Below, one piece after another: positions 2,031 to 18,811 of a stretch of DNA of 20,554 nt; position 1 is the stretch's first letter, and every line of letters begins with the position of its first letter. The stretch comes from Ectocarpus siliculosus. Taxonomy: Eukaryota; Sar; Phaeophyceae; Ectocarpales; Ectocarpaceae. The position numbers and the translations under genes are program-made. A model generated the notes under the pieces. The model saw nothing but the letters and a program-made list of their open reading frames with translations. It made no database searches and was not told the DNA's origin. The stretch covers positions 3,371,287 through 3,391,840 of the forward strand of contig FN649752.1 of the NCBI GenBank assembly GCA_000310025.1. The letters are read 5' to 3'.

Positions 2031-5000
2031 TCACCACTCTAGAAGGTTGCCCTGCGAATCTCCGGGGCAGAACTCGATGGTGTAGGACATGCTGTTCTTG
2101 CCGTCGTGGTCGTTGTTCTCGTCTTCGTTACGGCACACGAACGTCGAAGAGTGGTCGTCGTACGGGAAGCAGTCTGAAACCGTCATTCGAGCACAGCGGG
2201 GGAGGAAGGCGAGGTTAGACGGTTCGGGTTGATAACAACATAGTTCCTGCTAAAACGGGGAAGAAAGATACAGCGGTAGATCGAATACATACGTCAAATG
2301 ATGCGCCTAGAGGGTGATGTTTCCCAACTACCAATACACGCAGCAGACGGTTATAGAGCACCTACCCACGCTTATTTATGCGTCCCGCGCCTCTGTTCAC
2401 CTACACATCCACATGGAATGCTACCAGGACTCGGTTCTTGATGGAGTGCTGCTTTCGAGAACAAAATTAATTGCCATCCTTCTGCCTTGGAGGAGGCATG
2501 TAGAGTGAGTCACTGCAGGCTAGACGAAACGAGGATGGTTCGCCCTGGTGATCTGCTGTAGTTGGTATCCTCAAAAACGTCCGGCAGCTAGGTTGAAGGT
2601 TCGCTGAACGGCGAGGTGTTTATCCCGCATTCCTTGTGTATCCTACTGTGAACAAAAAACGCTTTCCAAAAGCACGCGTGCCGGCGCCGGAACTGCTGAA
2701 CCCTTCTCGGATTAAAAAAATGAAGGTATGCACCACAGAGTGGTGTTTTCTGTGGCGCCGGATCCGGCTCGGAGGGGTGAGACAGGCAAGACCGTACGGT
2801 AGGGGAAACGTGCGAGCAATGGATTATTACGCTTGCCGAATCTCCCCCCCTCCCTCCCCCAAACTCGACGGTTCTACGCAGGGGGAGTATAATACTGGTG
2901 GTGTACACAAGATAATTTAGTGCGGATGATTTAGTCTTGTGTATGGAGCTCACATGCGGTGGGGCAGGCGCGCTTGAGGTACTTGAGCCACGGCACGGAC
3001 AGCGCCTCCCAGTATGGGTTCTTGCCGTAGCAAGTAGACTCCGACGGGGCGTTGATGCCCAAGGCGGGCCAGTCGGGGCAGCCGCACGCCGTGTCCTCCG
3101 CGTTCCTGCTGTACCTGCTCGGCAGAAGAAGCGGTAGCAGAAGCAACCGTAGTGGTAAAAACAGCAGCAACAGCAGCAGCAGCAGCAGGGAAAACGAACA
3201 TACATTTGTTGGTGAAGAGCCAGATTGGGAGCTGCCGAAGCGCACAACTCAATGTGCCGGTGTCATCAAGGTTAAACATTGCCGTAGTTGCTCTCACGGA
3301 CTTTTACGAACACATAGCTCGAATTTGGGGGCAAACTCGACACATTCTTACCCGGACAGCCCATATATGGGGCCAGCGCAGCCATAGATGTCGGAATAGG
3401 TAGAGTTGTCCCCGATCACTTGCATCGTGTGTTTGTCGCACATGAAAGGGAACGAGTTGGGGAAGTACCTGGTGCGATGATGTGTGGATAGACGAAAAGA
3501 CGGAACACACGAAAGGGGTCACGGCGGGAGGGAGGGTATGTGTGTGGGGGGGGGACAGTGTATGCATACACGATTTCGTTGCCACCAGCGCACTATCCAA
3601 CCACGTATATGCTTCCGCCTGTTCGCATACTCCCTCGCATACTCCATGGCCCTTTGCCATGCTCTTGTTACGTTGTAGCACAATATGTGCCACCTGTCAA
3701 ACAATCCTCGGCCCGCATCATGACTTCTAGTGCCCTCTGTCCCCATCAACAAGGGTACGAAATTATGCAGTGCCATACTTCTATTTTCTTCCATTTGGAT
3801 CATAACTAACCCACCAACCTGGAGACAGGCATGCACGAGAGGTGTCGCCCCCCTCTCCCGGAGCTCCCCCCCCCCTCCCTCTAAATCTCTTAACTATAAA
3901 AAAATGACACCGGTTTTCTTCATTTTCTCGTGTCTGAGTCCATGGCTATACTTTCCTTCTCGTATCCCTGCCAATCACTTTTGCTGGTGGTAGGAGTTTC
4001 ACCCCAGCATTCCTCTCTGTTAACGGAGAGAAAAAACATCGGAACCATCCAAAGAAAAGCCAATGCTTCAAGAACAAACCATCTGCGGTGCGTCTGTCGA
4101 GCACTTGAGCGGCAGCTTACCCAAGGGGCTTCGATCTCGAATTTCCGCAGATGGCGTTGGGGCTGTGCCACCCCAGGTTGGAGCCGCACTTCTTGGGGAA
4201 CATCTGGCACGGTCGTGGTGCAAACATCCCGCAGAGTGGAACAATAGTGGAGGGGTGGGTGTTATGTTTTTTATTTGCTCAGGTGTTGTGACTGTAGAAA
4301 GTTACGAGCGACAGCCACCAACCACGGGATGGGGCGATCGATGAAGGCGGCCAATACATGCCGCAACACTACCCCAACACCTCACACATGTTGCGTGAGT
4401 ATTTCGGTCGATATACCGTGCATTCCAGCAATGCACTACCATCCGCACCTCTTCTGTGACACCGCCGTTGAGCGTGTCCTGCCCGAAGAGCGCACCGCAC
4501 TTAAGCTTCTGCCCGACACCCTCGCCTTCCACATCCTCACAGTCAGAGTCGTCTTCGCAGTCGGTGAACAGGCCGTCGTTTCGAACCCAGCGGAGGTACC
4601 TATATATCGGTGTGACGTTTCAGACGAGGGTTCCACCGTTCAGTTGGTTTTGGTCTTTTGGTGGTGGGTGCGTGTGATCAATCAGTGAAAGGCCACGGAA
4701 TAGACCGGATCCTTACGTTTTGCCGGTATGTTCTGTTAATAGGAAGATAAGTCGACGCCAACGCGGGCGCTTGCATTGTGGCCATATGAACAGCGACTTC
4801 AACCCTTCTTCTACTGGCGCCACACAGGCGCACGAGCGCGCGCACTGCTTGCAGGAAGAGAGGGTTGTGGTCGTTGGTGATTGTGGTTGTTGCTGTTGTT
4901 GGTTGTTGTTCTGGCCTTCACGTTCAGAGATCGTCTTGCGTAAAATTAAGAGTTTGTCGACGGCAAACAAGCCGCCACCACCACACCACCACCACCACCA

Positions 5001-8000
5001 CCACCACCACCAAAAGTAACAACAGGTATCAGACACCAACCCATGCGGCTGCTTGTACACACACACACATACATGGACATGTCGTGGTCGGGGAAGCCGT
5101 CGATCTCGGTCGCGTCGAACTCCCAAGTGCACCCTTCGAGCTCTTCGCTCATCGAAGAAACGCCTCCAGGGTTGGAGCACCAGTCTAGGAAGAAAGAAGA
5201 GAGACGAAGGCGGGGAAGGACATGAAAACGAATCAGTCTGATGAGTCAAGAAGAGATAAACTCTCCTTTCACGGCATGTACGCACCGGGAATGAGAAGAG
5301 CACGGCTTATTGGTTCTCTACTGAAAAACTGACCCGCCGAAAACTGGAGACGGCCGTTATTGTCTACCGGTGGTAGTGATGTCTCTCTATAGATTCTTGT
5401 GTGTAGCCGGCAATACGTTGAACCAGTTAATTATTTCGGTCATCGCTGTGTGCACGTGCTTCGACACTGTTTCTTCCATATTACTCTGACTGATTGAAAT
5501 TGACCCGTCGAAACCTTCCCGCTACATGACGTTTCATCCCTTTGCAGTACATCAACCTGGTATCACGCGTTAGCTCGTACTGTCGTCTTGGGACGAACTG
5601 CATACATGCTACGAAGCCGTTCTCCAAACTTTCTATGTGGCGATCCAATCGCCACCACGTCTGGGACAGACTCTGCACCCACTGCGGTGTCCCCGTTGCC
5701 ATCTACCAACCACTGCAAACTTGACTCTTGCTTCTATTCGGCTTTTCGGTGACGCTCGCATACTCACAAGGGTCTTCAAGTTTCTCCAACGGCGAGCTGA
5801 GCGGATCGGGCTTCATCTCGACGGGGACGTTCACGCCGTCAATCGCGGTGACATCGTAGTAGTCCACCCCCGTGTCCACCTGTTGCATAGCCGACGGGAC
5901 ACGTACGTGCCCGACACAACGTAGAGATGGGAGGAGCGACACGAGTCGGACGTACCGGTCGGGGGCAGGAGAGGGGATAGGAGGGGTACGGTCGAAGCGA
6001 TGGGTGATCGATGGTGGCGGTGTGCGCAATTTCCATCTTGACGGTCTTGACGCGAAAGCGCGCATCTATGTTTGATGTTTTTCTATCCATACTCCGTATA
6101 TGCGTTTGGCCGACGGACTTCGCTTGGAAACCCACCAGAGTGAACTCGGCCTTAGTGACGGGACCGGTGGGTCCCGTCGAGGGAGGGCAGTAGCCGTCCG
6201 GGTAGCCGATGTTCCGCAGGCAGGAGGCCGTCTCGCAGCCCACTTTGCTGTGGCACCCGGTCGCAGCCCACATGTTGCCGCTCCACCGCACACCTAGAAC
6301 GCCGTGACAACCACAGATAGATGACAAAAGCGCAGCCGGAACGCCGCAGAACATGTTTATGTTTCTATCGTGCCATCTACATACATACGGTATCCAGTCG
6401 AGATCCCCCTCGGGCCCCAGTCTCTCCCAACCTCCCCTCTCCACTCAACATTGGCGGGGACCCCCGCCATGTGTTGAGTCCCCGCCAATGTTGAGTGCGG
6501 TAGGTTCAGCCCGGCAATACCGGCGTGCACGAGAGGCCCTGCAGTATGGTATGGCAACTTGAAGCTCATCCGACCCCGAAACAATCGCTTAAGAGCAGCA
6601 GCCTCAAAGTGGGGGGACCTGACTCTTCGTCCTTACTGGGAGTACAGCGGGACAATAGCAGTGGTCCTTCTCTGGCGAGATGATGGCGCATGTTACGTAC
6701 ATGCAGCCGAAGTTCGAACGAACAAGTCGAGCATAACGGAAAAACGGAGCAAGACGCGCAAACCACGCGCCCTGCCTTGTACGTACCGTTCACGGCATTG
6801 TTGTCGAGGATGACCTCGATGGACCCTCCTGGTTCGATGTCGAAAGTCTTGTCGTCTTCGGGCAGCGGTAGCCCCCAGAAACAGGCCCCGACCTTCGAGG
6901 ATTGAGGAGCAACAACGACAGCAACAACACGCAACTGAGTGCAGCATTCAAGCGGAAGGCGGCCGGCAAGATATTGCAGCCACATAATAAAAAATATGCC
7001 ATTGGTACACCCTACGTGTTTGGGCGAACCAGCACCAACGGCCAAGTACGCGAATCGATGGGGGAAGGGTGCACGCGCACGGAAGTGCGGGGTATGTGAG
7101 ATAGAGACAATTTTGTACCGTTTCGCTGACCACATTCCGAGACGGGAGGCAGGCAAGGCTCTCGCTTTTGCGTGAAACAAGGCAAGCACTTCCGTTGTGG
7201 TGGGATACGATTCGAGCCATGCACATCTATGCCAGTCTCAACGCTTGGTGTCGCCAAGCGCATCAGAAAGCATTGTTGTGCACACTAACAAGGTAAGCTC
7301 TTGTTGGGTGGACTTTTCGAGTCTTAGTATCGCCGAGAGGACGCGTGGCGGAGGGAGGGAGGGAGGGAGGGTGGTACACTACATATAGAAGCGTCTACAT
7401 GCCTTCGTCTGTTGAGCAGTTGTCATGTCGTGCCGTCAGGCCGAGATCGTATTTCTCCTATACCGCCTGTTTTGTGGGAGATCGTATATCTCCATACCGC
7501 TTGTGTTGTGGGCGCATAGCAGTTACCATGGCTGTGCTGTTTGTAATGGGCTCGTGTACCATGCCCGTATACCTCTTGGTTGTCCTCATGCCATTTGTGT
7601 GCAGACATTCGATTGCTATTCACTCTCTACTGAACTCTCGACAGCACAAAAGCCATTCTCTGTGCACCTCTCTCTCTCTCTCTCTCTCTCTCTTACCGCT
7701 TCGTCGAGCACGCTCCCTTCGGGACACGACTCCACGGTGGGGTCGTCCAGAGCCTTCACGTACCCTCCGGTGGCCCCAAGTCTGACCTGCTCGAAGCAGC
7801 TGTTGATCACGGTGAACTTCCTCCGAGGGACGCCGTCGCTCTCTTTCGGTCCTTCTTGCGCCTTTTGGGTGAATTCAAGCGTACAATATGAGGGTACGCG
7901 ATGGGATAGGTCGGGACGTGCTGAGTAGCTGACGGAGGTAGGAGACCCCTTCCGAAGAAATGCGCACGGTCTCGAGTGTCCGAACAAAGCATAGACGAAG

Positions 8001-8310
8001 CAATACCGTTACGAGTAGCACTTGTTATTGTGCCACCGCTGTTGTTGTTCCCCCCAAACATTCTCCTTCGTCAGCATTTACGAACTTTTGTGCCTCCTGT
8101 TTGGTCGTCCACGAAATACCCAGGCGAGATGAAAATACTCCGTTTATGAACGGAGTAATGAGTGTAACAGCCAATGGCGTTACAGATCTGTTTATTTGTA
8201 CATCGAACCGATGGTCTGTCTGTCTGTCTTTATGTCTGACTGACTGTCTGTCTGTCTGTCTGTCTCAGTCTCTCTCCCAGTCTCTCTCAGTCTCTCTCAG
8301 TCTCTTTCTA

Positions 8311-8343
<33 letters not shown>

Positions 8344-11300
8344 AGTCTCACCGCCAGCTCCTCCTCTGTCATTTCCGTGGGGTCCCCCACGATGTAGATC
8401 GAGTTGGACCACGCTCCACCGCAAATGACGTTCTCGTCACCTTTGCAGGGCATGTTGCAGGTGTCGGTTGGAATCGCGTCCCTCTCGGCAGTGTAGTACG
8501 TATCCGCGCAGAAGCAGTCCTGAGAGTACTGCAGCGCCATGTACTTGTACCTGGTCAGGTGTAGGGGGAGGGAGGGGGGGGTACTCTTATGTTTTGCATG
8601 CCTTAGCGGTTATTAGACCGTTGAACACGCGTCTTCGAGAGGACGGAGGGGGGTGGTGGGGCAGTCACTTGATTGCTCTTCAAGAATATGCTTTTCTAGT
8701 TTGGAAAGGGTTGTTGTTGCGGCTGGGTGACTCACGAGCGCATGTCTAGGAATGCTCCCATTCTGGCGATAGAGAAGAACGCGGGGGTCGTCGGCATGAA
8801 CAACTAATTTCTTTACAGGCCCTCCTGGCTTTCAGTTCTCGTTATACCTTCTTCTTTCCATTGAACGGAAAAAATACGCATCCCGCTTTAAAACGAGCCT
8901 AATTGGATATAATATGTATTTTCATTGTTCTTGTGGGGTATCCTCTGATAGTGATAAAGGTCCCACTGTGTGTATGTGGGTTGTGTGCATGCTACTTGCC
9001 CCAGTGATGAGTCCACCGATCACCCTGCTCAATCACTACTTGCGTCCTCGGGGGGGCAGGAGGGTCGGTTAACATCGGTGTGAGATGACCTCTCTGGGCT
9101 GGCTTGGCCTCCACGGGGATAGAAGGTGGACAGCAGCATAGGTTGGATGTGGGTGCCGGCGAAACAGAAGAAGAACGGATGAACTCCTCGAAACCTCGCA
9201 CGACTCTACTGGTCCGTGCACCATGCTCCTTCGCCCAGGGCGCCTTGAGGCTCACCCTGTTGCTGCTATGGTTCGCGTGAAGAAACAGTCTTGTCCTGGG
9301 TACCTCACTTGTACTTTGAAGGAGTCATATCATCATCCTCTCCATCACAAACGCAAGCCTTGCGCGGGTTAGCGCGAAGACTTCCCGATAACATGTGTGT
9401 GTGCGGCTCGAATGGATGTCACTATATCACCCGAAAAACGGACTTGTCCTCGTGATTTCGCAAACAGCACAACAACAATAGCCCCGAATCTACAAGCCGC
9501 CTGCATTTGGCACAATTCTGACAAACACCGAGCAACTATATCGGGACGGTGTGGATCTCTCCAGGCTGTGGCGGATTCTCCATATCCTGGTGTCAACGCC
9601 TCTCTCTCTATGTATCCCTTTCTCTCGATCGATCGGCTATTTGATCGAATCTCAACGTTACTTGTCTCCATGTTTTCTTCCTTTCTATCTATCTCTCTCC
9701 CTTACCCGGAGCAGAACTCCGCACAAGATTGAGGCGTGAGGTTCTCGTCTTGCATGCTCTTGTCGTCGAGGAACCTCGTCAGCCCCGTGTCGTCGTCCAT
9801 GAAGCATCCCACGTACGTCAATCCCGACGAGGTCAACGGTGGCACGGTCGGCGGGGACACCGGCGCTGGAGTGACGATGTTGTGGAGACAGATGGACACC
9901 TGTTTGTTCGGCGATGTTTCATTAGAGGTGTGGGGTGGGATTGCCGTGGCTATTGTGATTTCAAATGGTTGCTGGTGAAACGGCAAGGATGAAGCAATTC
10001 TACCCCAAGACAGGATCAAACGATGGGAAGAAATAGGAGCGAGCTCGGTTAAAGGGACACCTGGCAGGTACTTGACGCGCTATGTGCCTAAGCCGGCGCG
10101 AGCAACGCGCCGCGCATCAAAGTTGGCAAGTTCGCAAGCAGGCGTGTTAATAGCTGCAGCTATAGAAAAATCCTTTAGCTCCCAATGGCAGGGACATATG
10201 GTGGCAAGTTCACGGCATGAGAGCAAACGGTCTAGACTGGTGTTGCTTCCCACTGACCTCCGCGACGGCGTTCCATATTCCTGCCGTGGTGCCCTTGAAG
10301 TCGAGACGGACCTTGGACCCCTCCGCGTGCTCCTCGAAGTAGAACGTCTCGTAGTCTTGGGTCTGCCCTCCGCTCTCGATGTCCTTCCTCTTGGCTACGA
10401 CGTTGTCGTACTTGTCGTACAGGGTCATCTGAAAAGCGGTATGCCCGGGACAGGGCGCGGCAGGAGCAGGACAACAAAGTAAAGCTACGAAGTGGCGTCA
10501 TATGGAATCGATAGCGAAAACATTTAGGAGGGGGGCGGGGGGGGGGAGGGGGGGAGGTCACTTGGTTGCCTTCGTGTTCGGACCACTGGTCCCATCCTCC
10601 TCATTTTTGACGGAGCGCCGTTCGTATTCCTTCAAGAAGGGGGGGTAATAAATCTGTTTCCTGACTGGTTTGGAGAAATCTCCGGACCTTCGGCGCGCGA
10701 ATGCTACTGTGTGTTTCGAACTTGTTCCTCAAGTGTCTACAGGCATCCCAGAGCAATTTATTTTACACATCTCTTGACAACGACATACTGTAGTTTGGAT
10801 TTTCTGCTGAGTCAAATCGAAAAGGTTTTAAATTCCTGGATCTAAACATTGTGTAAACACAGCAGTCAATCGAAAGAGCACTTTCCGCACACACGTTCTA
10901 GGAGGCGTTTCTCTCTGTAAACCCCTCATCTCCTCCCCTCTCCCCTTGTTTTCTTTCTCTCCAAAACAGCTGCTCACATCGAAAAAGGCGCTCCTCCTGT
11001 GCCCACGAAAGAAGGCGATGGCTACGCCACTGACGTCTGAATCGCCGTCCTCGCCGCCCTCGAATTCGATGTCCATCCACCTGTTTATGCCTCTTCTCCC
11101 CCACCTGTCATTATCCAACAAGCCACAACAACAACTGAGCGTCTGCATATATATAGACAACTTGTTTGGCAAGTTTGTAGACTACCCTGTTGATATATTC
11201 GTCAGCGTAAGAACGTCGGCGTACAGTAGTGCGAAAAATACCAGCGCCGCACAGCTTCCACTCTAGACGAAATATCTCCACGAACACATCAACCTTGTAG

Positions 11301-11933
11301 TATTTGGTCTATCTGCCCAAGCTCACGGTCTTCATATGTACAGATATTATCCACTTCGCTCGCGTCGGTTGTTTTAGACCCTCACCAGGTCGAAGGGTCA
11401 CCGTCGATAGCGTGCTCGGCGATGTTGCCGGTCTTCGGCTTGTCGTGTTTCACCTTCACGGAGGTCATATCCGCGGGGATTAGGCATCCTTCAAGCAGGA
11501 CGGTCGGGATGCTCGAACTGATGCTGTCGAAATATAGATCCGGCGAGTCAGAGTCATCCTCGGTCCGGACATCGGGCCTCAACTTGCGTTCGAGCGGGAG
11601 AGGCTTGCTGCCGCCGCTGATATCGCCGTGCTTTGAGGACAACGGCCCGTCTTCCTCCACCTCCTCCAGCGACTTCTTGATAGTGGCGTCGCCGAGAGCG
11701 GTGGCCGGGGTGTCGATTGCCGACGCTGCAGCTTCCGCGGAGAGCATGAAACCATTGCCCCGGGTGGCCGTAGATGAGGATGATGATGGCCAGAACGACG
11801 AAGAAGGATAGCCACCGACGAAAACCATGGCGACGAAAAGGAGGGAAGCGCGGGTGCCATGGCCGTGCAAGTTCCACGGCATCGTCGAGCGATGCTCTCT
11901 CCCCGCGACACGAGGCATAGAAGACGGTGTCAT
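2031..11933 (-). CDS. secreted multidomain protein: discoidin-like + WSC + thaumatin-like (15 exons)
   Basis: Exons, in transcript order on the minus strand: 11933-11386, 11080-10978, 10428-10258, 9899-9706, 8550-8352, 7861-7697, 6892-6787, 6293-6136, 5879-5768, 5184-5073, 4599-4449, 4203-4121, 3468-3352, 3105-2954, 2173-2031. All introns are GT-AG. Every junction keeps phase (2,0,0,2,0,0,1,0,1,2,0,2,2,1), the total is 2514 nt, and the last codon is TGA at 2031-2033, giving about 837 residues. A hydrophobic stretch at residues 29-42 (ASLLFVAMVFVGGY) is a signal peptide or anchor, followed by a Ser/acid-rich spacer, a discoidin-like domain (about 150-277), a Pro/Thr linker, WSC (about 301-393) and a thaumatin-like domain (about 420-837). 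The likely role is binding wall or extracellular-matrix glycans, possibly in defence; this is inferred from the domains. The start is uncertain: ATGs at 11933 and 11882 both have A at -3, the frame is open further to 12170, and 11882 would give a more classical signal peptide. The least certain boundaries are the 7861 acceptor (AAG, alternatives close by) and the 6892 acceptor (AAG). Confidence 0.88.
3159..3188. repeat. CAG/CAA trinucleotide repeat in an intron
   Basis: A run of CAG with two CAA interruptions (CTG on the transcribed minus strand), lying in the intron between exons 13 and 14 (3106-3351) about 50 bases upstream of the exon 14 acceptor. It is not translated in the gene model. 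Confidence 0.85.
4972..5014. repeat. CAC trinucleotide repeat in an intron
   Basis: About a dozen CAC/CCA triplets (GTG/TGG on the minus strand) inside the intron between exons 10 and 11. The poly-His or poly-Trp translations of this stretch are artefacts of the repeat. Confidence 0.85.
5047..5072. repeat. GT/CA dinucleotide repeat starting at a 5' splice site
   Basis: On the minus strand the donor of exon 10 (GTATGT, starting at 5072) runs directly into a short GT microsatellite ending in GTACAAG. The repeat therefore forms the first bases of the intron. Confidence 0.75.
6442..6497. repeat. perfect 20-bp inverted repeat (hairpin) in an intron
   Basis: The left arm 6442-6461 (CACTCAACATTGGCGGGGAC) is exactly complementary to the right arm 6478-6497, with a 16-base spacer. 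The spacer itself is an imperfect extra copy of the right arm (CCCCGCCATGTGTTGA against CCCCGCCAATGTTGA). It lies inside the intron between exons 7 and 8 (6294-6786), so the pre-mRNA can fold into a very stable GC-rich stem. It could be a palindromic mobile-element end, a small-RNA precursor or a chance rearrangement. Confidence 0.9.
7670..7693. repeat. CT microsatellite at a 5' splice site
   Basis: About 12 CT units on the plus strand. On the transcribed strand the donor of exon 6 (GTAAGA) continues straight into GA repeats, so the microsatellite forms the first bases of that intron. Confidence 0.9.
8213..8343. repeat. compound TCTG/CT microsatellite next to exon 5
   Basis: A (TCTG)n stretch grades into (CT)n with interspersed CAGTCTCT units and ends eight bases from the exon 5 donor at 8351. 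On the minus strand the intron begins GTGAGACTAGAGAGAG. The run is within the 490-base intron between exons 5 and 6. Confidence 0.9.
8581..8648 (-). mobile_element. 68-bp 3'-terminal fragment of the LINE, in an intron
   Basis: This matches the last coding bases, stop codon and tail of the LINE at 15159-15223, with about four substitutions and one extra TTA triplet. The shared part runs from GTACTCTTATG through GCATGCCTTAGCGGTTA to TCGAGAGGACGGA. It is in the same orientation as the full copy. A G-rich tract (8565-8580) abuts its 3' end, as at the full copy, and another (8648-8661) abuts its 5' end. It sits in the intron between exons 4 and 5 and reads as an extreme 5'-truncated insertion. Confidence 0.85.
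9629..9705. repeat. pyrimidine-rich TCTATC/CT tract at a 5' splice site
   Basis: On the minus strand the exon 4 donor (GTAAGG, from 9705) runs into GGAGAGAGATAGATAGAAAGG. It is weaker than the two following cases but of the same type: a purine-rich simple repeat at the very start of the intron. Confidence 0.65.
9891..11486 (-). other. discoidin-like (F5/8 type C-like) domain of the large gene
   Basis: Encoded by the end of exon 1, exons 2 and 3, and the first codons of exon 4. The N-terminal part ends in the family-typical AIDGDPSTWW, formed across the exon 1/2 junction. It continues with DVSGVAIAFFRGHRRSAFFD in exon 2, matching the strand in which these domains read V-x-G-V-x-I-A-F-x-x-G. 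Exon 3 closes with IWNAVAEV, joined to SI of exon 4, like the usual I-x-E-V-x-V end. Such jelly-roll domains bind sugars or cell surfaces. The ligand cannot be read from sequence, and a related carbohydrate-binding module family remains possible. Confidence 0.75.
10529..10558. repeat. G-rich tract in an intron
   Basis: A nearly pure run of G with single C and A interruptions, within the intron between exons 2 and 3 (10429-10977). It is C-rich in the transcript, so it could serve as a long pyrimidine tract, but the exon 3 acceptor used (TTTTCAG) lies about 100 bases further on. Confidence 0.8.
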
Positions 11934-13529: not shown

Positions 13530-14131
13530 AGGATGAGGCGGTGGCGGGAAAGGGGTGCCGGCGATGACAACCTCTGTGGTGAGTCCGTACAAATGTGAGA
13601 CAGCAGCAACTTCAATGTAACCACCGTATGCGGAGGGTTGAGCTATGATGGACAGGTAGTCCTGAAGAGAATAGTACACTGATGGCGGAGATCCTTGGAT
13701 CCGAATTGGGTCGTTTCCGAATCCGTTTGATATGTCTGTATGAAAGGTTCCTGGGTTGTGCTGTACGTACGTGTTGGACAATCAATGCCATGCCGAACTT
13801 GCGCGTGATTCGCTGGGTCACCAAAGGCTTTTCTAGAAATTGCTCTGAGAAGACAGGCCCCATCACCAATTCCATCCAAAATATTCCATGTTGATGACGG
13901 CGGGGTAGGACGTGGAGGAACAGGAGCTAGCTGTGGTGTTCTGTATAGACGTTCAATATCGTCGGGGATAGGAACCAAAGGCCACACAACGTACTTGCCT
14001 CCTGAACAACAGCAGTTGATTCTTCTGCCCATGTCCAAACGCTGAGTGCCTGCAACGCTGGTTTCTTTCATGGCGAAAACTACTGGCTCGAAAGACGTAC
14101 TCAACAGGCAAGCGAATGGAAAGGTCCCCAA
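13530..14131 (-). pseudogene. broken OTU-domain frame, probably a Helitron relic
   Basis: Reading leftward on the minus strand, a cysteine-containing stretch with INCCCSGGKYVVWPL and IPDDIERLYRTPQ resembles the CC-x-x-GK-V-x-x-P-L segment of Helitron replicase N-termini. It is followed by GIGDGACLLRAISRKAFGD and NHAQVRHG, the OTU cysteine-protease core (catalytic Asp and Cys in GDGxCLxRA). The frame is then lost near 13785. The rest, TYVQHNPGTFHTDIS and SLQDYLSIIAQPSAYGGYIE, continues in another frame from 13781, where the preceding codon is a stop. The terminal catalytic His region is not recognisable. OTU domains do occur in Helitron proteins, but no helicase or replication-initiator motifs are present here. 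It is best read as a decayed transposon fragment; a cellular OTU pseudogene is the alternative. Confidence 0.65.
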
Positions 14132-14185
14132 AAGCTACAACACCCAGGCGACGACCATTGGACATCACATGTCTTAGAAGTAAGT

Positions 14186-14787
14186 ATATTCTCCCGTACA
14201 AACGGAAAAACACGCAACAATGCCGGTCTAACGTCCACAAATAGGGGGCGTATCAACAACAGCGAACTGTATTCCTCTCGCACAAACGGAGGATAATACG
14301 CAACAATGCCGGTCTAACGCCCACAAGAAGCGGACGTATCAACAACAGCGAAATATATTCTCCCGTACTAACGGAAAAGTACGCAACAATGCCGGTCTAA
14401 CGTCCACAAGAAGCGGACGTATCAACAACAACAGCGAACTGTATTCCTCTCGCACAAACTGAGGATACGCAACAATACCAATCTAATGTCCACAAGAAGC
14501 GGACGTATCAACAACAGCGAACTGTATTCCTCTCGCACAAACGGAGGATACGCAACAGCAGTGCCGGTCTAATGTCCACAAGAAGCGGACGTATCAACAA
14601 CAACAGCGAACTGTATTCCTCTCGTTCCAACGGAGGATACGCAACAATGCCGGTCTAACGTGCACAAGAAGCGGAAGCGGACGTATCAACAACAGCGAAC
14701 TGTGTTCCTCTCGCACAAACGGAGGATACGCAAAAATGCTGGTCTAACGCCTTCAAAAAGCGGACGTATCAACAACAGCGAAATGCA
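14186..14787. repeat. minisatellite of about seven 83-89 bp units
   Basis: Units start with GCAACAATGCCGGTCTAACG at 14214, 14300, 14383, 14469, 14552, 14641 and 14730, after a partial unit from 14186. Periods are 86, 83, 86, 83, 89 and 89. Most units share CCACAAGAAGCGGACGTATC, then AACAACAGCGAA and TATTCCTCTCGCACAAACGG. Length differences come from extra CAA triplets and a duplicated GCGGAA. Several units contain ACGTCC and GGACGT 9 bases apart, a 6-bp hairpin. The period is not a multiple of three, so the array is not a protein repeat. Confidence 0.93.
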
Positions 14788-15144: not shown

Positions 15145-17622
15145 GGGGGGGGGGGGGCGTACTCTTATGCTTTGCATGCCTTAGCGGTTAGACCATTGAC
15201 CACGCGTCCTCGAGAGGACGGAGCATTGTTCCCACAGGACCGATCACCGATGGCCAATCGTTCCTTCCTACTTTGCCAAAGGTGGCTCAAAAATGTCTTC
15301 CCTAGTCTGTCTATCCTACCGATGTCACTTCCCGCCTTTTCAAACCACTTCCTACTCCCCAGTACCGCTACCGTCCTCTCCTCTCTATTCCATGCCTCAA
15401 ACATCTCCCTGTATGTCCCTTGTATTCTTCCCAGCTCAGTCATGTACACTTCCCTCTCCTTTTCGTACCACGGACATTCCGCGACTACATGAACACGGTC
15501 TTCGCATTCGAAGCCGCAATCACATTTGAACTTGTCGTCTTCGTCGTCTACCGTCCTATGTCTTCGTCGACGTTCGCGAAGGCCTATGTCCCCGGTCCTG
15601 AATTTGACCTTAAGCTTTGTCCCTGCATCCATTGGTCCATGTAGGTAATCCTTGAACCCTATTCCTTCTTTCAACATTCCGTACACTTCTAGACCCTCCT
15701 TATCCTTGGATTCTTTCCTTAGATTCTGTTCTTCTCTGTCGGCACAAGCAACAGATATCTTCTTCTTGAACCCCTGTAGACCCTCCGTTTCCAGCGTTTC
15801 ATCTTCGTTGATGTCCAATCCCTTCCATACGTCCTCTACAACCTTGACCCATTCCGTGGGTTGTCTACCCCTCTTTTTTTTTGCCCACTTCGCCTCCCAT
15901 ACTATTCTCGGCAACCTCTCCTCTCCCATCCCGCACATGCGGTACTGCCATGTCAGCTTCCTTACGTCTCTTCCCGACCGTAGGGATTGGATCCCCAATT
16001 CTGCCCTGACTGCTGCATTACTTGTGCGCTTGGAGCATCCTAGGATGATTTTCGCTGCTTTCATCTGCGCCGCCTCGAGTTCTTTCACTACCTTCTTATT
16101 TCCTTCCCATACTTCTCCGGCGTACTCCAGCGGCGGTACGATTACGCTCTTCAAAACCGTCAATTTGATGCGTGTATCAAGGTGCCGGTTTGCGAGTATT
16201 GGGTGAAGCTTCCCTGCTCGTGCTTTGCCCTTTTCCGCTACCTTGGACATGTGTGCATTCCACGAGCAATCTTTTGCGATCTCTACTCCGAGGTATGTGT
16301 ACTGGTCGACTACTGCAATCTCCTCGATCCCCCACTTCCATCTATGTTCTACTGGTTCCTCCCTGCCCTCGTTGCATACCATGACGGCACTCTTCGTAAC
16401 GTTGGCAGACAATCTCCACATATCAGTAAACTTCTTCGCCGCGTCAATTTGCAGTTGCAGTCCCTCAGGGGTGTCCGACATACCAACAAAGTCATCCGCA
16501 AACAGCATTCCTGACACCGAAGTTTCCGTGTCCCCTACTTTTACTCCCTTCCGGACTGCCTCTACGACTTCCAACAGATCGTTGATGAACACCTGGAACA
16601 ATGTTGGGGACAGCGTGCAACCTTGTGGGACCCCTTGCTCAATGTCGAAGAATTTAGACAGTTCTCCGTCTAGCATGACCGCGCTTTTCGTACACTCTGT
16701 CATCTTCTTCAGCACCCTCCACATTTTCCCCTTGATCCCGTACTTGGACAGTTGTTTCCACAGCCCATTTCTCCATACGGTATCGTATGCCTTTTTCACG
16801 TCCAGGAAGAAGCAGTACGTCCGCTTGCCCGCCCTCTTTCTACCTTGGATGATTCTCCCTACCGTGAATGCGTGGTCTACGCACCCCCTCTTCTGTCGGA
16901 AACCTGCCTGGCCCTCACTAATGCTACGTTTCTTCTCCAATACTCCCACTATCCTATCGTTCAGCAGCTTGCAGAACACTTTTCCTACTGTGTTCAACAG
17001 TGTGATACCCCTGTAGTTTCCTGGGTCAGTCTTGTCTCCTTTCTTAAACAAGTTCACAACCACTCCTTCCCTCCATCTACTTGGCGCATACTCGTTTTTC
17101 CACACCCAGTTGTACAGCAGTACCATCAGCTCGATCATCCCCTTGCCCCCAAACTTCATGAACTCGTTTACTATCCCATCCGCCCCTGCTGCTTTGTGGC
17201 ACTGCAGCTTGTTCACACACGCCTCAACCTCGTCCTCAGTGAACTCCTTTTCTAGTTCTACGTTCCCAACGTCTGCCTTCGATGTCTCTTCTTCTTTCTG
17301 GGCCCATGCGTCCACCTCCTTCTTAAACACTTGGTCAAAATCTTCATTCTCCGAAGGCACTCCAAGTCTCTTGTAGTGTCCTGCTAGAACTTCCCTTTTT
17401 CCCTTCCCACTGCTGACTAGTCCACCGTTCACACCTCGCAATGTTGCTACCCCTGTATCCCCCCCTTGCGCGGTCTTTTTTACCATCCCACTAATCCCTT
17501 CCCACATCTGCTTGACGTTCCCCTCCAGGCCTCCGTTGGCCTTCTGCACTACTTCGTCCCAAATGCTCTTTTTCTTCTTTTTCACTAGTCCCTTCACCTG
17601 TTTCCTCTTGGCCCTGGGGGGG
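15145..17622 (-). mobile_element. 5'-truncated LINE (non-LTR retrotransposon)
   Basis: The element contains a reverse-transcriptase frame whose stop codon is followed by only GAGTAC and one G before a C-run (13 C on the minus strand, 15145-15157). At its 5' side the frame opens right after a run of eight C (17615-17622 on the plus strand as G) and a TGA stop a little further out. The apurinic-like endonuclease that normally precedes the RT is missing, so the copy is 5'-truncated, as is usual for target-primed insertions. C-rich sequence at both ends could be the target-site duplication or the tail; no other direct repeat is evident. Confidence 0.85.
15165..17597 (-). CDS. LINE reverse transcriptase (endonuclease-less, uninterrupted frame)
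   Basis: About 810 codons without a stop. Residues 1-130 form the charged linker. The RT palm and fingers follow: HKAAGADGI near 134-142, NYRGITLLNTVGK at 194-206, GFRQKRGCVDHAF, FFLDVKKAYD with catalytic D266, QGVPQGCTLSP at 321-331, FADD with D368 and D369, and YLGV at 435-438. All three catalytic aspartates are present. Near residues 692-708, CDCGFECEDRVHVVAECP is the C-terminal Cys/His knuckle common in LINE ORF2 proteins. I see no RNase H. The first codon at 17597 is GTG and the same frame is open to about 17627, so the true start is lost with the truncation. The intact frame suggests a fairly young copy. It may not be expressed, lacking a 5' end. Clade unresolved. Confidence 0.93.
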   Translation of the reverse strand: MKGLVKKKKKSIWDEVVQKANGGLEGNVKQMWEGISGMVKKTAQGGDTGVATLRGVNGGLVSSGKGKREVLAGHYKRLGVPSENEDFDQVFKKEVDAWAQKEEETSKADVGNVELEKEFTEDEVEACVNKLQCHKAAGADGIVNEFMKFGGKGMIELMVLLYNWVWKNEYAPSRWREGVVVNLFKKGDKTDPGNYRGITLLNTVGKVFCKLLNDRIVGVLEKKRSISEGQAGFRQKRGCVDHAFTVGRIIQGRKRAGKRTYCFFLDVKKAYDTVWRNGLWKQLSKYGIKGKMWRVLKKMTECTKSAVMLDGELSKFFDIEQGVPQGCTLSPTLFQVFINDLLEVVEAVRKGVKVGDTETSVSGMLFADDFVGMSDTPEGLQLQIDAAKKFTDMWRLSANVTKSAVMVCNEGREEPVEHRWKWGIEEIAVVDQYTYLGVEIAKDCSWNAHMSKVAEKGKARAGKLHPILANRHLDTRIKLTVLKSVIVPPLEYAGEVWEGNKKVVKELEAAQMKAAKIILGCSKRTSNAAVRAELGIQSLRSGRDVRKLTWQYRMCGMGEERLPRIVWEAKWAKKKRGRQPTEWVKVVEDVWKGLDINEDETLETEGLQGFKKKISVACADREEQNLRKESKDKEGLEVYGMLKEGIGFKDYLHGPMDAGTKLKVKFRTGDIGLRERRRRHRTVDDEDDKFKCDCGFECEDRVHVVAECPWYEKEREVYMTELGRIQGTYREMFEAWNREERTVAVLGSRKWFEKAGSDIGRIDRLGKTFLSHLWQSRKERLAIGDRSCGNNAPSSRGRVVNGLTAKACKA

Positions 17623-17627
17623 GAGGG

Positions 17628-18419
17628 TAATCAGACGAAAGGAGGGACCACTCTGTAACACAAATAAATGGCAAAAGGGCAGTGGGTTATGCTTTCGGGA
17701 AAAAGTGGCTGTGTGGCGTGATAGGAGCACTTCGTTAATTAACAGCAGCAGTTTGTCGTGTGGTTTCTTAAAAAAAAAACTTGCGCATGTAGCTTAATTT
17801 CGTAGCGGAGATGCGGAGAGGAAAGGAGAACAAAAATAGGATTGTAAAGAACATATTTCAGAAGTAGTATGTATGTATGTGAAAAAAAAAAAAATATACA
17901 CCACACACAATCAATCAGAAGCACTGCTGTCTTTTGCGCGTACAGTAAACAAACATGTCATACACTCAACAGTAAACAGGAGTAGTACTATTTACAAACG
18001 TTCCATCTAATGTCTGTTTGCGCTAGCCAAAAAGGTGAAGAAAATCCAAGCATGACTCGGTGCTCACGTCTCTACTGAGGGCCTTGAACGCGACGGCAGA
18101 GACCTCCGTCCCAGGGGCCTAGTCCATCAAACAATTCCGGTGATGGACGTTGTGGTACGCTGTTGGTCCACGGAAGAAAGAGAGCGGGGACAGGCAGCAG
18201 GAACAAAAAGCATTTGCACGATCTATGGTTTATTTAGTGGCAATGTGGTACATATGCCTTGTATCATTTATTAATTACCCAAGAGGAACAATGGTGACAC
18301 CACAACATCCCCTAGTAGTTCTCTGCTGGGTCAACGACAAAATATCGGGGAGAATCCCTCCCTTGTGTCGTGTAATGTAAAATGTGACCTTCACAGGGGA
18401 CACGGCCCCAGTGTCTATT
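17628..18419. other. non-coding interval
   Basis: Contains A-runs near 17770 and 17882, a short GTAT repeat near 17868, and no frame with recognisable content. Minus-strand frames near 17491-17730 and 17739-17924 look like noise. Confidence 0.6.
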
Positions 18420-18506
18420 GTTAAGGAGGACCCGATTCGCAGGGTATCCGTCGATTGACTTTTACCAAAATCGGTACACCTTCGCATGTGGCGTCAGCGG
18501 CAGGAT
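18420..18506. repeat. 86-bp dispersed direct repeat, copy 1
   Basis: The unit starts GTTAAGGAGGACCCGATTCG and ends GCGTCAGCGGCAGGAT. It recurs at 18703-18789 with two or three substitutions. Copy 1 continues into ACTGGTTCGAATCTCC and a T-run (18533-18540), a combination resembling a tRNA B-box and a Pol III terminator, whereas copy 2 does not. Confidence 0.92.
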
Positions 18507-18702
18507 ACTGGTTCGAATCTCCTTGGGTGCACGTTTTTTTCTCCTGACTTGGACATTTTCCCATGGACACATGGTGTGTCAGTCCTGAGAACACCTCTTG
18601 GAATCGATCCTATAAAGAACCTTGTGACACTTCCATCGAATTACCCGTCCTGGCCACAAGAGGTTCGTTCCCAGTTGAGGGTAAATTCTGTGGGTGGAGA
18701 GT

Positions 18703-18811
18703 GTTAAGGAGGACCCGATTCGCAGGGTATCCGTCGATTGACTTTTACCAGAATCGGTACACCTTCGCATATGGCGTCAGCGGCAGGATCCAGAATCGGT
18801 ACACCTTCGCA
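18703..18811. repeat. 86-bp direct repeat, copy 2, plus a 22-bp internal re-duplication
   Basis: The second copy spans 18703-18789. It is followed immediately by a third, partial copy (18790-18811, CCAGAATCGGTACACCTTCGCA) of its own central part. The nearly identical minus-strand reading frames over both copies are a by-product of the duplication. Confidence 0.9.

Follow-up and report, generated by a model that had tools for sequence, protein, structure and literature searches.

The stretch of DNA analyzed here (the window; 20,554 nucleotides of the brown alga Ectocarpus siliculosus, contig FN649752.1, positions 3,371,287 to 3,391,840) carries on its minus strand, from 11933 to 2031, a predicted gene whose 15 exons are joined across GT-AG introns into a single frame of 851 codons followed by a TGA stop. 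The predicted product comprises a hydrophobic N-terminal segment, a discoidin-like module of the CBM32 type, a WSC domain, and a long-type thaumatin-like domain (TLP). The exons and domains, in window coordinates, are as follows.

11386..11933, minus strand: exon 1, with the start Met, the hydrophobic N-terminal segment (residues ~26-47), a linker, and the start of CBM32
10978..11104, minus strand: exon 2, CBM32
10258..10428, minus strand: exon 3, CBM32
9706..9899, minus strand: exon 4, one open exon with the last strand of CBM32, a Pro-rich linker, and the first half of WSC
8352..8550, minus strand: exon 5, second half of WSC
7697..7861, minus strand: exon 6, N-terminal strands of the TLP
6787..6892, minus strand: exon 7, TLP
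6136..6293, minus strand: exon 8, TLP with WSGNMWAATGC
5768..5879, minus strand: exon 9, TLP with DYYDVTAIDG
5073..5184, minus strand: exon 10, TLP, where the long-type Cys-rich insert starts
4440..4599, minus strand: exon 11, TLP insert, with an alternative in-frame donor after 4449
4121..4203, minus strand: exon 12, TLP insert
3352..3468, minus strand: exon 13, TLP insert
2954..3114, minus strand: exon 14, TLP with CGCPDW...CPTA, the CAG acceptor (first base 3114) being preferred
2031..2173, minus strand: exon 15, C terminus of the TLP, YCFPYDDHSSTFVC...FCP, and the TGA stop
9888..11486, minus strand: CBM32 (discoidin-like) module, residues ~150-286, exons 1 to 4, flanked by Cys150 and Cys286
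8415..9815, minus strand: WSC domain, residues 311-392, with eight Cys
2034..7822, minus strand: long-type TLP, residues ~427-851, with 23 Cys

A preliminary description of this DNA, made from the letters alone, had already proposed 15 exons in one phase-continuous frame that encode three extracellular, carbohydrate-associated modules in this order. Both proposals are borne out. As the splice sites were picked to preserve phase, phase continuity by itself says little; the weight is carried by the G+C content at third codon positions (GC3), which is 0.72 to 0.93 in all 15 exons with a G+C content of 0.51 in the introns, and by domain matches that span the junctions (CBM32 in exons 1 to 4, WSC across exons 4/5, TLP in exons 6 to 15). 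The coding sequence as a whole has 0.54 and 0.48 G+C at first and second codon positions. When the alignments are read by eye, 11 of the 14 junctions fall inside conserved stretches, and 5/6, 10/11, and 11/12 fall outside. The exon-2 acceptor at 11104 restores the STxWxxxGxxxW core and is therefore favored over the in-frame alternative at 11080; a tandem acceptor (GAG/CAG) at exon 14 gives 851 residues with CAG or 852 with the acceptor three bases earlier. GC3, the domains across junctions, and paralogues linking the same domains confirm at the sequence level that the CBM32-WSC-TLP gene model is real; the order of the modules is also borne out by profile and PDB matches.

The genome searched is a 189-Mb assembly of 492 contigs in which the window contig is designated C27. 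It contains at least 150 matches to EsV_1_7_cys (150 of the 880 first-look candidates were scored), a repeat family typical of brown algae; these, the abundance of WSC matches, and a single viral capsid match, both described below, suggest a brown-algal genome. TLPs are found at four loci, the window gene on C27 and further loci on C8, C208, and C16, and the order CBM32-WSC-TLP occurs on C27 only. The thaumatin family search picked up C208, C8, and C16 but not the window gene, whose short exons are the probable reason. A search with the window protein (E ≤ 10) gave 17 rows: 10 from the window gene, 1 from C208, 3 from C8 (one with an E value of 0.6), 2 from C16, and 1 from C12 (E 0.57), the last of which was taken as a chance match.

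The C8 locus (L003, minus strand) is read as a CBM32-TLP paralogue. Three consecutive exons match a CBM32 model with E values of 1.9e-5, 2e-5, and 4.7e-5, the model including the window's own CBM32 and C26 rows without a Pfam check, and the next match in the searched frames outside these exons has an E value of 1. A single C8 exon is weak by itself, with a best PDB E value of 0.15 and no Pfam family. No WSC domain is among the matches listed for this stretch. The C208 locus (L001, plus strand) is read as a WSC-TLP paralogue. Here, a hydrophobic stretch seen by eye lies directly ahead of the WSC domain, which scores 28.9 bits in the genome search and 26.4 bits in the open frame (hmmscan) against a cutoff of 27.8. 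WSC positions 1-47 lie in one exon, and the next exon (L001:5746-6153) reads the end of WSC into an aligned TLP start, with neither piece named by Pfam. After ~175 TLP residues, the C208 frame gives way to low-complexity sequence and N. With C208 truncated in this way and C8 joined by hand, the N-terminal core of the TLP is retained in all three host paralogues. As these sister genes carry other mixtures of modules, the window gene looks like a real mosaic of known pieces.

The paralogues also bear on the suggestion that the exon model merges two neighboring genes, one for CBM32-WSC and one for a TLP. The junction of exons 5 and 6, where such a merger would lie, is itself without homology coverage, but it is joined in phase 0 with the GC3 coding signal on both sides. 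The linking exon of C208 and the position of the C8 TLP exons, which start within ~400 bases of the last CBM32 exon piece, likewise speak against separate genes. Such a merger is very improbable.

The discoidin-like module proposed in the preliminary description is more precisely read as a CBM32, since the six best PDB matches are all to CBM32-bearing proteins. The window module matches AlyQ (7d29/5xnr) with E values of 3.2e-7 and 2.2e-6 and 5zu6 with 9.7e-6, followed by weaker matches to the alginate lyases 5zu5 (7.9e-5) and 7w12 (1.1e-4) and to YeCBM32 (0.0018). Altogether, nine distinct PDB sequences are found at E ≤ 1; the six at E ≤ 0.002 are CBM32-bearing chains of alginate lyases (five) and YeCBM32 (one), and the other three (E 0.12 to 0.13) are alpha-N-acetylglucosaminidases. 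A leave-one-out model, for which two CBM32 domains of the probably proviral C16 locus and two of C26 were used, finds the window module at 1.4e-12 in a search space fixed at 1000 sequences. Across the genome, a PF00754 search gives four places, none of them in the window, and a CBM32 search (E ≤ 10) gives six rows, three of the window gene and one each from C16 (1.3e-7), C26 (0.00275), and C12 (0.0456).

The module shares with the alginate-lyase CBM32s and YeCBM32 the GN..e..IDGd.sT.W...G...W core and the C-terminal WN...EV strand. In contrast to the alginate-lyase CBM32s, its partner is a TLP and not a lyase, and it has an extra flanking Cys pair, which is present in all five CBM32 rows of the alignment from this genome. 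In the AlyQ study (PMC5651945), the CBM32 of that enzyme bound poly-G and alginate that had been treated with lyase, whereas intact alginate was not bound. Because the closest solved relatives are alginate-lyase CBM32s, alginate appears to be a better-supported ligand for the window module than beta-glucan. On C26, a 591-residue frame (L004:2209-3981) combines a PL6-like region with two CBM32 domains, as read by eye and from the alignment with the C16 domains; its layout resembles that of a C16 frame described below, and no TLP is among the matches listed for C26.

The WSC domain (PF01822) is matched by Pfam with an E value of 7e-18 and 65.1 bits (cutoff, 27.8) over profile positions 1-82 of 82, and its eight Cys lie between residues 314 and 390. 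The complete 82-position domain with eight Cys is shared with Serendipita WSC3 and with brown-algal WSC proteins; the window WSC differs from these in being the single middle module of a TLP protein. The genome contains at least 133 exon-level WSC matches at E ≤ 0.01, with 150 of the 244 candidates scored. Serendipita WSC3 is described as binding long-chain beta-1,3-glucan (PMC7816849), WSC proteins as enriched in a matrix rich in beta-glucan (PMC9252488), and one WSC gene as upregulated in the Saccharina sorus (PMC11333212). By analogy, the window WSC is a possible beta-1,3-glucan binder.

The TLP (PF00314) is matched with an E value of 6e-19 and 69 bits (cutoff, 27.4), and the Pfam scan of the 851-residue protein with E values up to 1 returns nothing besides Thaumatin and WSC. 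The TLP shares the blocks WSGxxWaxTGC, DyyDv..iDG.N.P, and CPtAY..pyDD..STF.C with TLPs of the PR-5 type. It is set apart from them by its long Cys-rich insert, a replaced Arg in the REDDD motif of the acidic cleft, and the upstream CBM32 and WSC modules. The region contains 23 Cys compared to 16 conserved in the TLP family, the insert blurring a one-to-one matching. At the positions taken to be those of the REDDD motif, the window TLP retains E, D, D, and D; the Arg position holds R in one of the eight alignment rows (L007). Action on beta-1,3-glucan belongs to the general picture of TLPs. In PMC3048497, TLPs are described as having antifungal activity and an acidic cleft, and 13 of 18 representatives have REDDD or an equivalent motif fully conserved, so that the motif is not strictly defining. 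The plant TLP fusions in the same source are TLP-kinases, unlike the CBM32-WSC-TLP order of the window.

Among the non-algal TLPs found, the closest comes from a bacterium. In a scan of bacterial and archaeal genomes, 4 of 38 pattern matches were confirmed as TLPs. The frame L005, from a metagenome-assembled genome of the Thermoanaerobaculia, matches query residues 1-416, with 35% identity in the best segment. A similar Cys-rich insert is seen in two of these four, L005 and L006 (a Binatia metagenome-assembled genome), and in the further frames L009 and L012; L007 and L008 are ordinary TLPs. By eye, these bacterial long-type TLPs share motifs of the CC/CGC and LK..CPTAY type with the window TLP, L012 deviating; in contrast to the window gene, each is encoded by one uninterrupted frame. 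Inspection by eye showed neither CBM32 nor WSC in L005, L006, L009, or L012, the Pfam scan covering L005 only. A GH64 match of L005 was disregarded as below threshold (E 0.067). L009 (G001:C42) is a second long-type TLP of the L005 genome, an 849-residue frame ~29 kb from the first. Of the 147 genomes in the class of L005, TLPs were found in 3, counting the L005 genome itself.

In a tree of 10 rows, the C27, C8, and C208 TLPs form a group with support values of 97/95, and L005 joins next (83/82). With C208 left out (nine rows), C27 and C8 stay together (95/95), and L005 is left without a resolved position. Both trees have long branches; that of the C16 TLP, which is placed apart from the host group, is not trustworthy.

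At the C16 locus (L002, C16:4488500-4498400, plus strand), an intronless frame of 399 residues encodes a long-type TLP (Pfam E value, 1.6e-12) with 36% identity to the window TLP. It differs from the window gene in lacking introns, in having no CBM32 or WSC in the same frame, and in falling outside the host clade. Close to it lie a frame with two CBM32s (F5_F8, 1.8e-22) behind a PL6-like region, a label that rests on a Chondroitinase B match below the cutoff (E 0.015), and a frame with LPMO_10 and CBM_1. A search of the genome for capsid families of nucleocytoplasmic large DNA viruses gives a single match, ~57 kb from the C16 TLP. Because of this match and the nearby CBM32 and LPMO frames, the stretch is probably a phaeovirus-like provirus carrying a wall-directed gene set. 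A LegT match of the TLP frame was disregarded (20.4 bits against a cutoff of 1200). PMC2373305 mentions a thaumatin encoded by the Ectocarpus virus; viral TLPs are therefore not new, and the long-type TLP inside the probable provirus resembles this case. Scans of IMG/VR confirmed no relatives among 4 pattern matches for the window TLP, 20 for the four-row alignment, and 4 for the C16 TLP.

These modules suggest, with slightly better than even confidence, a secreted TLP that would be held in the alginate-rich wall and act on beta-1,3-glucan. The CBM32 would hold the protein on alginate, perhaps at lyase-cut ends as the AlyQ module does, and the WSC domain may give a second hold on wall glucan or foreign beta-1,3-glucan. 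The TLP, with its acidic cleft mostly retained, would bind or hydrolyze beta-1,3-glucan. The N-terminal modules would be exchangeable parts that direct a conserved TLP core to its place, and the whole may be a wall-resident defense factor (PR-5-like) or a wall-remodeling factor. The preliminary description had proposed anchoring to wall polysaccharide by two modules and possible TLP action on beta-1,3-glucan such as laminarin or that of a pathogen. Its emphasis on laminarin is supported in part: glucan binding by WSC is possible from the WSC3 analogy, but the CBM32 points to alginate. The TLP action is supported by the E, D, D, and D of the cleft and weakened by the Asn at the Arg position; it stays a tentative deduction from TLPs in general.

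Several observations weigh against this interpretation. Pfam does not detect the CBM32 module and assigns no F5/8C family in the scan of the protein. The REDDD motif is incomplete, the Arg position being Asn. The long insert sets the domain apart from those short plant TLPs whose structures have been solved, and a structure prediction for L005 from a four-row alignment is uninformative, with a predicted local distance difference test score of 33.8. Lastly, the N-terminal hydrophobic stretch does not begin until residue ~26 and could instead anchor the protein in a membrane.

On hydropathy, the stretch at residues ~26-47 behind a 25-residue leader suggests that the 851-residue protein is probably secreted. 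The same stretch, together with the WSC domain, would fit a wall-integrity sensor that is anchored by it in type II orientation and whose modules monitor the state of the wall, as yeast Wsc proteins do. Yeast WSC sensors are type I proteins with a signaling tail. In contrast, none of the six most hydrophobic windows of the algal protein is close to the C terminus, and no kinase appears in its Pfam scan. An internal start at Met18 would turn the stretch into an ordinary signal peptide, and the C208 paralogue has its hydrophobic stretch directly before WSC. Such a sensor is unlikely.

The main rival to a defense role, which is the likeliest for the window protein, is a structural or remodeling wall protein in which an inactive TLP would serve as a lectin-like scaffold cross-linking alginate and glucan during growth. 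The loss of the REDDD Arg, the abundance of WSC matches in the genome, and the WSC gene upregulated in the Saccharina sorus fit this doubtful but serious alternative; the retained E, D, D, and D of the cleft and the TLP core conserved across the three host paralogues argue against it. A more specific version of the defense role is wound-addressed wall immunity, in which the CBM32 would find lyase-cut alginate ends and the TLP, with WSC, would gather where a pathogen digests the wall and attack or mask the pathogen's beta-1,3-glucan. The phaeovirus-like TLP beside alginate-directed genes would then be a decoy or copy of this system. In this elaborated form, the defense role is a speculative proposal with little chance of being correct.

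The window has further features. An open frame of 821 residues at 15165-17630 (minus strand) has a reverse transcriptase domain (RVT_1, 3.9e-33) and is read as a LINE-like (long interspersed nuclear element) element. A 46-nucleotide piece near the 3' end of this frame (15145-15190) has a 91% identical copy inside the TLP gene (intron 4, 8567-8612), and tail sequence resembling it is readable in L001 (C208) and L003 (C8). The window also contains a tandem array of an 86-bp unit in 6.7 copies (14212-14782), a minus-strand frame at 13643-14134 with a subthreshold OTU-protease match (E 0.058) that is perhaps a transposon relic, and a direct repeat of 106 nucleotides with 91% identity (18419-18524 and 18702-18807).

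The preliminary description held that this three-part order is not a described family. No description of CBM32-WSC-TLP was found among the listed titles and consulted passages of literature on brown-algal and phaeoviral thaumatin, WSC, and discoidin proteins; domain-architecture databases were outside this search, and automatic annotations may list the order. The main text of a cDNA study of oomycete infection (PMC3174193) contains neither "thaumatin" nor "WSC," and "thaumatin" and "alginate" were not found in the text of PMC13236599. The mosaic is thus apparently undescribed and assembled from known pieces; it is one of several related architectures in the genome and not a singleton, which qualifies the earlier view.

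To our knowledge, hardly any extracellular effectors have been described for the immunity of brown algae. A small family with subsets of the modules and a probably proviral relative would make wall addressing and antimicrobial function separately testable. The long-type TLP, whose other occurrences found here are confined to bacteria and a probable provirus, is now linked to a probable multicellular alga.

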